From positions 1 to 64,000 of the forward strand of contig JAJEDN010000054.1 in NCBI GenBank assembly GCA_022821495.1: a stretch of DNA of 64,000 nucleotides, in the 5' to 3' direction. A program made the translations under genes and the position numbers. Below the pieces are notes generated by a model. That model ran no database searches and was not told the DNA's origin. It saw nothing but the letters and a program-made list of their open reading frames with translations. Each line of letters starts with the position of its first letter. Position 1 is the first letter of the stretch. This document shows, in pieces, positions 10,080 through 62,091 of this stretch. This stretch comes from Candidatus Poribacteria bacterium. Lineage in GTDB: Bacteria; Poribacteria; WGA-4E; WGA-3G.

Positions 10080-13000
10080 ATGGAATCACAAACTAAACGC
10101 TTGATGATCACTATCGTCACCCTCGCTATTATCGGTGGCTTAGGTGCTGTCTGGGTTAACCTGTATCCCGATTACCTCTGGTTTAAGATGGTGGATCATC
10201 TCGGTGTTTTCACTAAAATTCTCACAATAAAAATATGGGTTGGGGTCATCGTTGGACTTTGCTATTTAGCCATCCTTTTGATAAACCTCCTCTTAATCTA
10301 TCGATTCACACCGGCACATCTCAGCCCCGCTTTTATGGGAGGCGCAGACTTCGCAAGTGGTGCCGCAAATAACCCAGGGGACACGCGGAAACTTGTTTAC
10401 GGCGGGTTAACACTCCTCGCAATACTTTTCAGTATTCTGATGGGTTACACAGCCAGCGATCGGTGGGAACTCTATCTACGCTATCGCAACTCCAATGAAC
10501 TCGTTTTTCCTGCTGCTACCCCTATTATCGCAGAAGAAACCGTTAATTCAAACGAAATACCTGTGACACAATTGGAACTCCAAGCAAAAAACATAAGAGT
10601 TGGGGATCCGGTGAACGTGCAGATAGATGGCACAAATTACGACGCACGCGTTGAAGCCGTATTGGAAAACGGGATCCGATTGAACACAAATGTCCAAATA
10701 GAACCTGGACAAAAGGCGTTTTTCACGTCTCCGGCACGCGATCCGATCTTTAAGAAGGATGTCGCTTTCTACGTTTTTGAAATGCCTTTGCTGCGTTATA
10801 TCTGCGGCACACTTTTTGGCATCTTTATGCTCGTGACGATATTTGCAACTGTCATCTATTTCTTCCACGGACTGATTACAGGCGATACCAGTCAATTTCG
10901 GTTCCGTCCGCCTTTTAACGTCAAAGCCCATCTGTTTACGCTTGTCGGTGTGACACTCCTCTTTCGGGCATGGAACTATAAATTCGTTATGTATGACCTG
11001 CTATACGCCTCAAACAATGTCGTGCGAGGCGGCGGTGGATATGCCGCTATACAGGCACGCCTACCGGTCCTGAATATCATGCTTTGGCTCACAATCATCT
11101 GCGCACTGATTTTCATTGTGAGTATCTTCTTAAAACGCCACACCTATGCTTTCGGTGGATTCGTCGTATTTCTAATTGTCGGGTTCATTGGACAAGTGTA
11201 TCCAGCCGCAATACAGCGATGGCAGGTTGAACCCAACAAACAGGTGTTAGAAGCAGATTACATCAATTATAACATCAAAGCGACGCTCCAAGCTTACGGT
11301 TTAGCTGAAAACACGGTAACCGAAGAGGAATATCCACTCACAGAACAACTCAGTTACGATGACATCACCAGTGATGAAAACGCGCCTGTCTTTAACAGTA
11401 TCCGCCTCTGGGATTGGCGACCCCTACGCAGAGTCTTCCGGCAACTCCAAGAACTGCGTTCACAGTATGACTTTAACGACGTCGATATCGATCGCTATGT
11501 CGTTGGTGACGAAATCCGACAGGTGATGCTCTCCGGACGGGAACTCAATATCAATGAACTCCCCGCAGAAATCAGAAACGATTGGTATAAGCAGACCTAT
11601 GTCTACACCCATGGATACGGTGCCGTTGTGAGTCCTGTGAATGAAATTGATAAGGGCAAACCCAACATGTACATTCAGGAATTGCCACCGATTCAATACA
11701 AAGAAGAGTGGAACCACCGCTTTACCGAAACGCCAGGGCCCCGCATCTATTACGGAGAACGGACCAACCGATATGTCATCGTAAATCCCGACCGCCCAGA
11801 ACCCCTCGAATTTGATTATCCACAAGATGAACAAAAATACGCCGAATACGCGTATCAGGGGAAAGGCGGCGTACTATTGAACTCCTTTTGGCGGAAAATG
11901 GTGTATATGCTCAAGTTCAATAACGAAATTAACTTCGTCCTACCGGGTGAAATTTCATCGACAAGCCGAATCCTCTACAATCGGAATATCAAAGAACGGA
12001 TTCACAAAATCGCGCCCTTCTTGCGATACGATGGGGATCCCTACATCGTTATCCATGACGGCAAACTCGTCTGGATGATCGATGCTTATACGATTACACA
12101 TCGATACCCCTATTCCGTTTCGATGAGAGAGTTCGACGACGAAAGAAGAAGACAACTCGCAAATGCGCAACAGGACGATGAATCATGGGGTAACTACATC
12201 CGAAATTCTGTTAAAGTTATCGTTGATGCTTACGATGGCACCGCTGACTTTTACATCATGGAACAGGAACAGGATCCAATTGTGGAATGTTATCGGAGAA
12301 TCTTCCCAGACCTCTTTAAGTCGTTTGAAGAGATGCCTGATGAACTCAAAGCACACATTCGGTACCCGATGGCTATGTTCCTCATCCAAGCCCGCGTCTA
12401 TCAGGATTACCACATGAAGGACCCGGTAACCTTTTATGCCGGCGAAGATAAATGGGAAATTGGTAGAGAACTCTACGACAATACGGACGCACAAGTACAA
12501 CAAGCACCACAACAGCCAAGAAGTCCATTCGTACCCCAACAACAGACTGTCCAACGTTCAGCAGCGGAGGGACAACCTGTTGAACCTTATTACGTTGTTA
12601 TTAGGTTACCCGGGGAAGAAAAAGCCGAATTCATGTTGATGTTGCCGTTCACACCGCTCAACAAACCGAATCTCACAGCATGGCTCGCCGCACGGTGCGA
12701 CCAACCCCAATATGGGCAGCTCCTCGTCTATCGCTTCCCGAAAGGGAAACAGATAGCAGGACCGATGCAGGTAGAAAACTTCATTAGCCAAGAACCGGAT
12801 ATTTCCCAGCAGATCAGTCTCTGGAATACGGAGGGGTCTCGCGTCTTACGCGGAAATCTTTTGATTCTTCCGATGAACAACTCCCTGCTCTATGTTGAAC
12901 CCATCTATATCCAGTCCGAAGATGAGAAAACGGCTATTCCCGAACTGCGGCGGGTCGTCATCGGATATGAAAACGAAGTCGTCTGGGGTGAAACCCTTGA

Positions 13001-13247
13001 GGATGCACTCGACGAAATGTTCGGACAGAGAACGCGACGCCAAATCACAGAGGCAACTGCGACACTTGAAACAACAGCCGACAGCGGAACAGAGCAGTCA
13101 TCCGTACGTCAACGCATTGAACAAGCAAACCAGTATTTCAATCAGGCACAGAACGCACAACGTACAGGCGACTGGGCAGAATACGGACGCTCCTTGAAAC
13201 TGTTAGAGGAAACTTTACAACAACTTGACAGAAACACACAGGAATAG
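10080..13247 (+). CDS. UPF0182 family membrane protein
   Basis: The 1055-residue protein matches the UPF0182 (COG1615) family in length and layout: about seven N-terminal membrane segments (first at residues 9-27, then 50-75, 105-122, 225-260, 290, 340 and 365), followed by a large soluble domain. The segment YPDYLWFKMVDHLGVF after the first helix is a family hallmark. The biochemical role of UPF0182 is not established. An unusual proline/glutamine-rich insert lies at about residues 800-830 (QQAPQQPRSPFVPQQQ), and the C-terminal tail is predicted coiled coil. It is preceded by the recurring leader with AAGGAA. Confidence 0.9.
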   Translation: MESQTKRLMITIVTLAIIGGLGAVWVNLYPDYLWFKMVDHLGVFTKILTIKIWVGVIVGLCYLAILLINLLLIYRFTPAHLSPAFMGGADFASGAANNPGDTRKLVYGGLTLLAILFSILMGYTASDRWELYLRYRNSNELVFPAATPIIAEETVNSNEIPVTQLELQAKNIRVGDPVNVQIDGTNYDARVEAVLENGIRLNTNVQIEPGQKAFFTSPARDPIFKKDVAFYVFEMPLLRYICGTLFGIFMLVTIFATVIYFFHGLITGDTSQFRFRPPFNVKAHLFTLVGVTLLFRAWNYKFVMYDLLYASNNVVRGGGGYAAIQARLPVLNIMLWLTIICALIFIVSIFLKRHTYAFGGFVVFLIVGFIGQVYPAAIQRWQVEPNKQVLEADYINYNIKATLQAYGLAENTVTEEEYPLTEQLSYDDITSDENAPVFNSIRLWDWRPLRRVFRQLQELRSQYDFNDVDIDRYVVGDEIRQVMLSGRELNINELPAEIRNDWYKQTYVYTHGYGAVVSPVNEIDKGKPNMYIQELPPIQYKEEWNHRFTETPGPRIYYGERTNRYVIVNPDRPEPLEFDYPQDEQKYAEYAYQGKGGVLLNSFWRKMVYMLKFNNEINFVLPGEISSTSRILYNRNIKERIHKIAPFLRYDGDPYIVIHDGKLVWMIDAYTITHRYPYSVSMREFDDERRRQLANAQQDDESWGNYIRNSVKVIVDAYDGTADFYIMEQEQDPIVECYRRIFPDLFKSFEEMPDELKAHIRYPMAMFLIQARVYQDYHMKDPVTFYAGEDKWEIGRELYDNTDAQVQQAPQQPRSPFVPQQQTVQRSAAEGQPVEPYYVVIRLPGEEKAEFMLMLPFTPLNKPNLTAWLAARCDQPQYGQLLVYRFPKGKQIAGPMQVENFISQEPDISQQISLWNTEGSRVLRGNLLILPMNNSLLYVEPIYIQSEDEKTAIPELRRVVIGYENEVVWGETLEDALDEMFGQRTRRQITEATATLETTADSGTEQSSVRQRIEQANQYFNQAQNAQRTGDWAEYGRSLKLLEETLQQLDRNTQE

Positions 13248-13259
13248 TTTTTAGTTAAT

Positions 13260-13389
13260 AGTTATAAGTTATAAGTTAAGAGGGTTCCGATTGTCCAATA
13301 TCTTTTGGTAATCGTCGGCACTCCAATTGGGAAGAGACAGTTACAAAGAGATGATCAAACATCAGAAACCAAACTTATAACTTATAACT
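13260..13389. repeat. MITE-like element with 18-bp terminal inverted repeats
   Basis: AGTTATAAGTTATAAGTT at 13260-13277 is the exact reverse complement of 13372-13389, with 94 bases between. No coding is apparent inside. It may be a small non-autonomous element or, in RNA, a long stem separating two transcription units. Confidence 0.6.
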
Positions 13390-13415
13390 GATAACCATTA
13401 AAGGAGGTGAAATAG

Positions 13416-13661
13416 ATGGCTCTCGATTGGAAACCACGCCACAGGGATATGATTATCGGAGGGATTCCCTGGTTAGCGAGAATCAGCGATAAAGCCAACG
13501 CACAATTGCAGGGCGTTATCGGTGAATATATCTATCCGTGACCGCAGGATAAGATGTTCCTGGAGGAACATAAGATCAGTGCTGAGGCGTTTGTTGAAAT
13601 GGTGAAAAATAACCCCTCAGACGATGAAATGATCGCGGCTATGAAGGAATTGAGTAAGTAG
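13416..13661 (+). CDS. DUF5069 family protein, candidate selenoprotein (in-frame UGA at codon 42)
   Basis: Reading from ATG 13416, behind a strong site AAGGAGGTG, gives 41 codons, a TGA at 13539-13541, then 39 further codons to TAG at 13659. The protein reads ...GGIPWLARISDKANAQL...GEYIYP-U-PQDKMFLEE...FVEMVKNNPSDDEM. From memory, DUF5069 proteins have Cys at this position (Y-x-x-CP-x-D), so UGA replaces a conserved Cys. A perfect 7-bp hairpin, ATGTTCC-TGGA-GGAACAT (13554-13571), begins 12 bases after the UGA, with G as the second loop base and the loop 19 bases away. That fits the bacterial SECIS pattern. Otherwise it is a nonsense-disrupted gene. Function of DUF5069 is unknown. Confidence 0.65.
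13554..13571 (+). promoter_or_regulatory. candidate bacterial SECIS hairpin
   Basis: The stem ATGTTCC/GGAACAT has seven perfect pairs and a TGGA loop. It is placed 12 bases after the in-frame UGA, within the coding region, where SelB-binding elements of bacterial selenoprotein mRNAs lie. The loop contains GG, as in many known examples. Confidence 0.55.
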
Positions 13662-13838: not shown

Positions 13839-14921
13839 ATGGAGATCTATTCTTTGGAATTAACTGAGTACCGTGACCAGATCAACCAAATTGACGACCA
13901 GATTTTAGCCTTACTACAGAAACGAGCGGAAATTTCTAAGAAGGTCGGTGCGGTGAAAGCAGAAACAGGTGCTGCACAAGTTTATGTTCCGCATCGGCAG
14001 AAGCAGGTTATTGAACGCTTGAAGGCGCAAAACCAAGACAAGTTCCCGGAAGCCGCACTTGAATCAATCTGGACAGAGATTTTATCTGCCTCTCGTTCTT
14101 TGCAGGAGGCAGAGCGGGTCGCCTTTCTCGGTCCCGTGGGTAGTTTCGGGCACCTGGCGGCTCGAAGTCATTTCGGGGCATCAACGGAGTTCATCCCTGT
14201 TCACCCTCAGGTTGACATCTTCGGTGAGGTCGAATCCGGTAGGGCAGATTACGGTGTAGTCGCTATCGAGAATTCGCTGCAGGGTACTGTTCGGGACGTT
14301 TTAGAACGCTTCCAACACACACCATTGTGGATTTGCGCGGAAACATTTCAGCCCATAAAACAGCATTTGTTGTCAAAGTCCTCAATCACAGAAATTCAGT
14401 GCATCTACTCGCATCCACAACCTTTCGCGCAATGCAGGGTATGGCTAAAGCAATATCTCCGTGATGTTGAACAGATCGAAGTTGTTAGCACATCTGAAGC
14501 GGCGCAGCGTGCTTCACAAGAACCATTCGCAGCTGCCATCGCGAGTGAACTCGCAAGCGAGATTTATCAGATCCCAATTGTCGCAAACGCTATTATGGAT
14601 GAACCAGATAACACAACCCGATTCTTTATCATTGGGAGTCAGATGGCAGACCCAAGTGGATACGATCGGACTTCGCTCTTTTTTGCAATTCAGGACAAGG
14701 TCGGTGCTTTGCACCGAGTCCTCGGTATTTTAGAGGATGCCGAGTTAAATCTAACTTACCTTGAATCTCTTCCGTCACGCACCAAACCCTGGGAATATGT
14801 TTTCTTTGCTGAGATGGAAGGTCATATTGCTGAAGAACGCGTCCTCGTAGCGATTGGGCAGCTCGAAGAATTGTGTGCGAATGTCAATGTTATCGGTTCC
14901 TATCCGCGTGGGACGTCTTAA
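13839..14921 (+). CDS. pheA: bifunctional chorismate mutase / prephenate dehydratase (P-protein)
   Basis: The 360-residue protein has three domains in the standard order. An AroQ chorismate mutase occupies residues about 5-90 (RDQINQIDDQILALLQKRAE). A prephenate dehydratase covers about 93-270 (GPVGSFGHLAARSHFG, VAIENSLQGTV, TTRFFII). An ACT regulatory domain covers about 275-355 (LHRVLGILEDAELNLTYLES), which usually binds phenylalanine for feedback inhibition. It converts chorismate to prephenate and then to phenylpyruvate in the cytoplasm. Its stop overlaps the next start as TAATG, so queG is translationally coupled. Confidence 0.95.
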   Translation: MEIYSLELTEYRDQINQIDDQILALLQKRAEISKKVGAVKAETGAAQVYVPHRQKQVIERLKAQNQDKFPEAALESIWTEILSASRSLQEAERVAFLGPVGSFGHLAARSHFGASTEFIPVHPQVDIFGEVESGRADYGVVAIENSLQGTVRDVLERFQHTPLWICAETFQPIKQHLLSKSSITEIQCIYSHPQPFAQCRVWLKQYLRDVEQIEVVSTSEAAQRASQEPFAAAIASELASEIYQIPIVANAIMDEPDNTTRFFIIGSQMADPSGYDRTSLFFAIQDKVGALHRVLGILEDAELNLTYLESLPSRTKPWEYVFFAEMEGHIAEERVLVAIGQLEELCANVNVIGSYPRGTS

Positions 14922-61161: not shown

Positions 61162-62091
61162 ATGCCTCCTACTTTTAACCAAAAAGCTATCGCACGGATT
61201 CCAGCAAGCACAACAAACCTCGGGCCCGGGTTTGACGTACTCGGGCTTGCGTTGCAACTCTACAGCACAGTCACGCTGGAAACCACTAAAACCGACACGC
61301 AAGTTCTTGTTAGTGGCGTAGACGCGGATAAAATACCGGGCACGCCAGAGCATATCGCATTTCAAGCAGTAGAACTTGTCTTCAATCGAAGCGGCACTAA
61401 ACCTCCAAAAGGCTTCAAATTGCAGATAGAGAATGGAATACCAGCGATTCGTGGATTGGGTGGTAGTGGAACGGCGATTCTTGGCGGGTTACTCACCGCA
61501 AATCTGCTATGCGACTCTCCATTTTCTGACATAGAACTCCTTAACTTTGCAACAGAATTAGAGGGACACCCAGACAATGTCGCTGCCTCATTGTATGGCG
61601 GCATCGTTGTCTCAGCACTGGAGGATGCACAAGTGCATACCGTCCGGTTGGAATGTCCACCAGTGCTTTCGGTCGTGCTTGCAATTCCAGATTTTCCACT
61701 ATCGACAGAACAAGCGCGAGGCGTGCTGCCCACATCAGTAAGTTTCGCAGATGCAATATATAATACGAGTCGAAGTACCCTGTTAATTGCCAGTATTGCT
61801 ACAGGTCAATTTGAGATGTTACCTGTCGCTATGAAAGACAGGTTACATCAGCCATACCGTGCCTCGCTAATTCCAGGATTTGACGATGTCGCAAAAGCCG
61901 CTACCGCTGCTGGGGCACTTAGCGTTGCGTTGAGTGGCGCGGGACCGACAGTCGCAGCCTACTGCTTAGACCATACAGATCAGGTGGCTGAACAGATGAA
62001 ATCTGCCTTCAAAAAACACCAGATTGTATCTGATATCAGAATTCTAAAGCCGGATGTTAATGGCGCGAGCGTTCATATTGAGAATATCTGA
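61162..62091 (+). CDS. thrB: homoserine kinase
   Basis: The 309-residue GHMP kinase begins AIARIPASTTNLGPGFDVLGLAL, the homoserine kinase pattern for substrate binding, split here across residues 9-31. The GHMP phosphate loop is PAIRGLGGSGTAILGG (about 95-110), and ALSGAGPTVAA is the C-terminal motif. ThrB phosphorylates homoserine in threonine biosynthesis. ATG 61162 aligns with the family start. It follows the aminotransferase by about 100 bases. Confidence 0.95.
   Translation: MPPTFNQKAIARIPASTTNLGPGFDVLGLALQLYSTVTLETTKTDTQVLVSGVDADKIPGTPEHIAFQAVELVFNRSGTKPPKGFKLQIENGIPAIRGLGGSGTAILGGLLTANLLCDSPFSDIELLNFATELEGHPDNVAASLYGGIVVSALEDAQVHTVRLECPPVLSVVLAIPDFPLSTEQARGVLPTSVSFADAIYNTSRSTLLIASIATGQFEMLPVAMKDRLHQPYRASLIPGFDDVAKAATAAGALSVALSGAGPTVAAYCLDHTDQVAEQMKSAFKKHQIVSDIRILKPDVNGASVHIENI

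Follow-up and report, generated by a model that had tools for sequence, protein, structure and literature searches.

A short DUF5069 gene of Candidatus Poribacteria as a probable selenoprotein of an apparently undescribed family

The short DUF5069 gene and its in-frame UGA

The window considered here (the whole analysed stretch of 64,000 nucleotides, from contig JAJEDN010000054.1) belongs to a Candidatus Poribacteria genome assembly (GCA_022821495.1) whose 133 contigs add up to 5.37 Mb at 94.7% completeness, and contains a short gene of the DUF5069 family with an in-frame TGA that very probably encodes selenocysteine (Sec). As defined by its reading frame, its Pfam match and its homologues, the gene occupies 13416..13661 on the forward strand and runs for 81 codons from an ATG at 13416 to a TAG stop at 13659-13661. 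On the same strand it is preceded by a strong Shine-Dalgarno sequence, AAAGGAGGTG, read at 13400..13409, and AAGGAGGTG is kept 5' of most TGA copies among the Poribacteria copies read. The TGA itself, the inferred Sec codon, is codon 42 (13539..13541, forward strand), a position held by TGC or TGT (Cys) in relatives. Reading through it yields an 81-residue product, MALDWKPRHRDMIIGGIPWLARISDKANAQLQGVIGEYIYPUPQDKMFLEEHKISAEAFVEMVKNNPSDDEMIAAMKELSK, whose match to the Pfam family DUF5069 (PF16798) spans the TGA (residues 7-79, E-value 2.9e-14, 53.8 bits against a gathering cut-off of 27 bits) and covers model positions 4-76 of 133. The selenoprotein reading corrects gene calls in which the short DUF5069 gene would end at codon 42.

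Behind the TGA, at 13554..13571 on the forward strand, lies a hairpin resembling a bacterial selenocysteine insertion sequence (bSECIS), ATGTTCC-TGGA-GGAACAT, identified by folding, conservation and covariation. Its 7-bp stem carries a 4-nt loop with G at the second position, begins 12 nt past the TGA and sets the loop 19 nt from it. The original prediction, which had described an 81-codon gene with a strong ribosome-binding site, a TGA at codon 42, protein similarity on both sides of it and a perfect hairpin of this geometry, is borne out on all of these counts. It had also held that TGA is an ordinary terminator in this genome, and TGA is indeed the stop of 8 of the 35 open reading frames of at least 250 residues in the window, including the one ending at 62091, so that the genetic code can be taken as standard.

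UGA and cysteine forms across phyla

A match to short DUF5069 was found in 80 of 85 Candidatus Poribacteria genomes. In the 79 short-form copies read in this phylum the same codon is TGA in 73 cases, TGC in five and TGT in one; the six Cys copies all come from a single family within the same class. The UGA form extends to two further phyla. Among 43 loci read from the 64 Latescibacterota genomes searched, 36 carry TGA and seven Cys; in the 400 Chloroflexota genomes searched most copies have no internal stop, and TGA occurs in three full copies and one contig-end fragment. The UGA form was not found in a broad sample of other bacteria. An initial scan outside the Poribacteria had returned 34 loci, all with Cys at this codon, and the resulting impression that every homologue outside the phylum is a Cys form was rejected: it arose because one of the two patterns used included the Cys codon, and the phylum-wide Latescibacterota and Chloroflexota searches overturned it. 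Some short DUF5069 homologues use TGA as their terminal stop.

The alignment of homologues suggested alongside the original prediction showed that relatives have either Cys or UGA at precisely this position, and the Cys expected there for DUF5069 proteins proved correct, both in the homologous loci and in 30 diverse sequences. In the latter the Sec/Cys column is invariant, as are R22, D25, K26, Y38, P41, P43 and D45, and no second conserved Cys was found. In a tree built from 75 columns, Poribacteria and Latescibacterota form a group (Shimodaira-Hasegawa-like approximate likelihood ratio test, 98); roughly half of the inner forks stay open, and no fewer than six changes between Sec and Cys are required. 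Sec may be old in the branch of Poribacteria and Latescibacterota, with losses to Cys, and may have been gained separately in some Chloroflexota.

Two side observations concern the family at large. One genome (G059) has two different TGA copies (C89:294-533 and C57:1301-1540); its assembly is listed at 9% contamination and may be a mixed bin. On another contig of the window's genome (C80; L105:704-1987) lies a 427-residue protein with apparently three DUF5069-type repeats, in which YGESSGLD-type sequences stand in place of YPCP, apparently representing a branch without the nucleophile.

A conserved hairpin behind the UGA codon

The strongest signal lies in the nucleotides of the hairpin. Its core, TTCCTGGAGGAA (13557..13568, forward strand), corresponds to codons +6 to +9 after the UGA (TTC CTG GAG GAA) and does not differ among the 73 TGA copies from Poribacteria, with zero synonymous variation even at the six-fold degenerate Leu codon, while all other degenerate codons of the gene vary. 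The distance from UGA to loop is 19 nt in 72 of these copies and 22 nt in the single exception, L060, whose inserted codon displaces the hairpin by 3 nt; pairing is kept there through a G-C to A-T swap. The Latescibacterota TGA copies have the core at an unchanged distance in 35 of 36 cases, with compensatory changes in the stem. Over 38 non-redundant sequences from both phyla, both partners of stem pairs 5, 6 and 7 have changed (from G-C to C-G, for example), and the covariation score reaches 0.250, against 0.070 for shuffled alignments and no more than 0.096 when the partners are slid.

The hairpin agrees with the constraints published for bSECIS elements (PMC13188914). These call for an apical loop 3-9 nt long in which one of the first two nucleotides is a G, an upper stem of 4-16 bp, a UGA-to-loop distance of 16-37 nt and a minimum free energy of at most -7.5 kcal/mol. 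The loop is UGGA in the window, as in each of the 73 TGA copies from Poribacteria, the stem has 7 bp in the window and 5-7 bp in other copies, the spacing is 19 nt (22 nt in L060), and the 36 nt after the UGA of the window fold at -9.1 kcal/mol, a value of which some relatives fall short over that length.

The hairpin core was not found in the Poribacteria Cys copies. One Latescibacterota Cys (TGT) copy, L197, keeps a SECIS-like stem with a TACA loop instead of TGGA; since the stem persists in a Cys copy while the loop G is gone, this hairpin is likely a SECIS remnant, judging from its sequence. Remnants of this sort in Cys homologues have been described before (PMC1794560). The Chloroflexota TGA copies have a different hairpin, of the GCTC-GGT-GAGC type, in the same region, which suggests either an independent origin or a replacement. 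Separately, in three of the Chloroflexota UGA copies (L240, L241 and L242) an outer helix around the GGT-loop hairpin seems to covary (GGG/CCC, GAG/CTC).

The selenocysteine machinery

The genome of the window encodes SelA (contig C23, 607.9 bits) and SelB (contig C115, 343.8 bits, over the cut-off), and a tRNA-Sec adjoining selB (77.5 bits) is called by ARAGORN as tRNA-SeC with anticodon tca. SelA and SelB have been noted earlier in sponge symbionts (PMC5649159). Two class-level Poribacteria relatives (G003 and G004), in which SelA is missing and no SelB reaches full score, are also without short DUF5069. SelD is present in 36 of 40 relatives, each time with one TGA, and the copies read (L191-L196) have a hairpin behind this UGA, such as CAGTCC-AGTT-GGACTG. 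As to gene order, tRNA-Sec and selB lie side by side (C115; L106:6588-8677) and selA apart on C23, while in several order- and class-level relatives selA directly adjoins selB; near selB there is also a tandem pair of very similar dihydrodipicolinate reductase-like genes (L106:3404-5032).

Probable Sec insertion and competing explanations

Taken together, the UGA read through in a conserved gene, the Cys in same-locus homologues and a hairpin selected at the nucleotide level along with the UGA make it very probable, from sequence comparison, that the short DUF5069 gene encodes a selenoprotein with Sec at UGA42. The candidate interpretation with which the analysis began is supported by the machinery, by the Cys/UGA column and by the conservation and covariation of the hairpin. 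The parts found point to Sec insertion by the standard bacterial route: SelD would supply the selenophosphate with which SelA makes Sec-tRNA-Sec (anticodon UCA), and SelB would bind the UGGA-loop hairpin as a bSECIS and deliver Sec-tRNA-Sec to UGA42. The DUF5069 protein expected from this has 81 residues, is mostly helical and carries its only selenol within the motif Y-[IV]-[YF]-P-U-[PG]-x-D.

Several points weigh against this interpretation. The case is one of sequence comparison. The search for selA, selB, selC and selD in the same genome, proposed with the original prediction, succeeded for SelA, SelB and tRNA-Sec and failed for SelD, no copy of which was found over the cut-off in the window's own assembly at its stated completeness. 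The best SelD-like match there (C20) scores below the curated cut-off, lacks a UGA and was set aside as a paralogue, because relatives carry both a C20-like protein and a true SelD. The search for Sec machinery was confined to Poribacteria genomes. One TGA copy, L229, is without the hairpin core. On its own, the fold energy of the hairpin is ordinary (z -1.57), synonymous recoding gives p of about 0.02-0.10 per sequence, and in some relatives the short downstream segment has another minimum-energy fold. Folding energy was consequently dropped as stand-alone proof: the perfect hairpin on which the original prediction leaned is present but insufficient by itself, and it is conservation and covariation that make the case. 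A search with the Rfam model SECIS_1 gave no match, a null result that is uninformative because no control genome gives a match either.

Among competing explanations, the one that retains most plausibility, improbable as it is, takes the UGA and hairpin to be mainly a selenium-dependent switch between readthrough and termination instead of a means of making a selenoenzyme. Every Sec UGA acts partly as a stop, and the partner residues of the selenol are without assignment, both of which suit a switch; no result obtained favours it, however, and this locus also retains Cys forms in which the remainder of the protein is conserved, suggesting that residue chemistry is important. It is highly unlikely that UGA42 is a true stop releasing a 41-residue peptide, the downstream half being a remnant or a separate frame. 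Translation table 11 does terminate the frame at 13541, but similarity and the Pfam match carry on past the TGA, the downstream codons vary mainly synonymously across the 73 copies, and the same-locus Cys homologues read straight through. Equally slight is the chance that UGA is read as another amino acid, by a reassigned code or a suppressor tRNA: an in-frame TGA taken alone would be compatible with this, but TGA terminates long frames of the window as well as some of the gene's own homologues, Cys is the residue aligned with it, the genome has SelA, SelB and tRNA-Sec, and the hairpin core accompanies the TGA forms. Sequencing error or a pseudogene, conceivable in a window taken from a draft assembly of 133 contigs, has negligible probability given 73 TGA copies in Poribacteria, several of them in genomes of one or few contigs, and 39 further TGA copies in two other phyla.

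Fold and possible function

The AlphaFold2 model of the window protein is mostly helical (predicted local distance difference test, 83), and the only match of note in the Protein Data Bank is 3OMD (template modelling score 0.81; profile E-value 1.1e-20). The fold search yielded nothing beyond it, and a thioredoxin-like fold was not found, the predicted fold being helical and matching 3OMD. Probably the conserved Cys of DUF5069 is a reactive nucleophile, one that it pays to exchange for Sec. The selenol could serve as nucleophile in catalysis by a redox enzyme of the one-Cys type, either a peroxidase or a reductase, with an external thiol for resolution; one-Cys-type chemistry is proposed because there is no second conserved Cys. 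With an invariant Sec/Cys, no second Cys and a helical model matching only 3OMD, we regard a one-selenol redox role, argued from sequence and model, as about evenly balanced. It counts against the proposal that we only infer this role and that the sole fold match, the DUF5069 crystal structure 3OMD, has no assigned function. It is a little less likely than not that short DUF5069 represents a new type of selenoenzyme (tiny, non-thioredoxin, with a single selenol, no resolving Cys, no known redox motif and undescribed chemistry) in which Sec arose at least twice, in Poribacteria/Latescibacterota and in Chloroflexota, with different SECIS hairpins.

Genomic neighbourhood

The gene order is common to Sec-form and Cys-form loci among the 46 Poribacteria loci compared. 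The upstream syntenic neighbour (10080..13247, forward strand), which we take to be a UPF0182-type membrane protein, stands beside the gene in 37 of them, and the downstream one (13839..14921, forward strand), presumably chorismate mutase/prephenate dehydratase-like, in 40, including five Cys-form loci. Outside Poribacteria, short DUF5069 has no recurring real-looking gene partner, its neighbours being mostly shadow frames. Just 5' of the ribosome-binding site, the window contains a stretch of about 160 bp (13243-13401) with inverted repeats of 24-28 nt (AGTTATAAGTTATAAGTT), reminiscent of a miniature inverted-repeat transposable element.

Novelty and comparison with known systems

A catalogue of 2026 lists 119 prokaryotic selenoprotein families or subfamilies (PMC13188914), and its table does not include PF16798, the only Pfam family over cut-off for the window protein; no NCBIfam model matches the protein. 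The word DUF5069 was not found in the literature searched, a search that left subscription literature, preprints and recent GenBank annotations outside its scope, and a literature search for motifs such as YPUP returned no relevant paper. The original statement that DUF5069 had not been described as a selenoprotein therefore stands for the literature searched and for the catalogue, and short DUF5069 is apparently an undescribed selenoprotein family of a known kind. The prokaryotic selenoproteome would gain a family that almost all of the Poribacteria genomes examined possess and that extends to the majority of Latescibacterota homologues, two phyla for which we found almost no selenoprotein literature. 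The finding also offers a first functional clue for DUF5069, and the Sec, Cys and remnant-hairpin forms make up a natural series for studying the exchange between Sec and Cys.

Like catalogued bacterial selenoproteins, short DUF5069 has a UGA-encoded Sec replacing a conserved Cys, selA, selB and selC in the genome, and, closely following the UGA, a bSECIS-like hairpin in whose loop one of the first two nucleotides is a G. Unlike them, its selenol stands alone in YPUP.D, with no UxxC, CxxU or UxxS/T motif and no thioredoxin-like fold. The 3OMD structure, from Leptospirillum rubarum, shares the DUF5069 domain and has Cys at the aligned position (Y-N-CPLD), whereas the window protein has Sec for Cys and spans only part of the PF16798 model. 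The Sec-containing SelD of Poribacteria provides a parallel within the same phylum, with a hairpin built on the same plan behind its UGA (a perfect stem and, in several copies, a 4-nt loop), but it belongs to an established selenoprotein family of known function and is an unrelated protein. Finally, the SECIS of E. coli fdhF is a small hairpin with a GGU loop and a bulged U. The Poribacteria and Latescibacterota copies differ from it in their UGGA tetraloop and in having no bulged U, yet they are likewise small hairpins at a similar distance from the UGA, and the Chloroflexota copies share its GGU loop.
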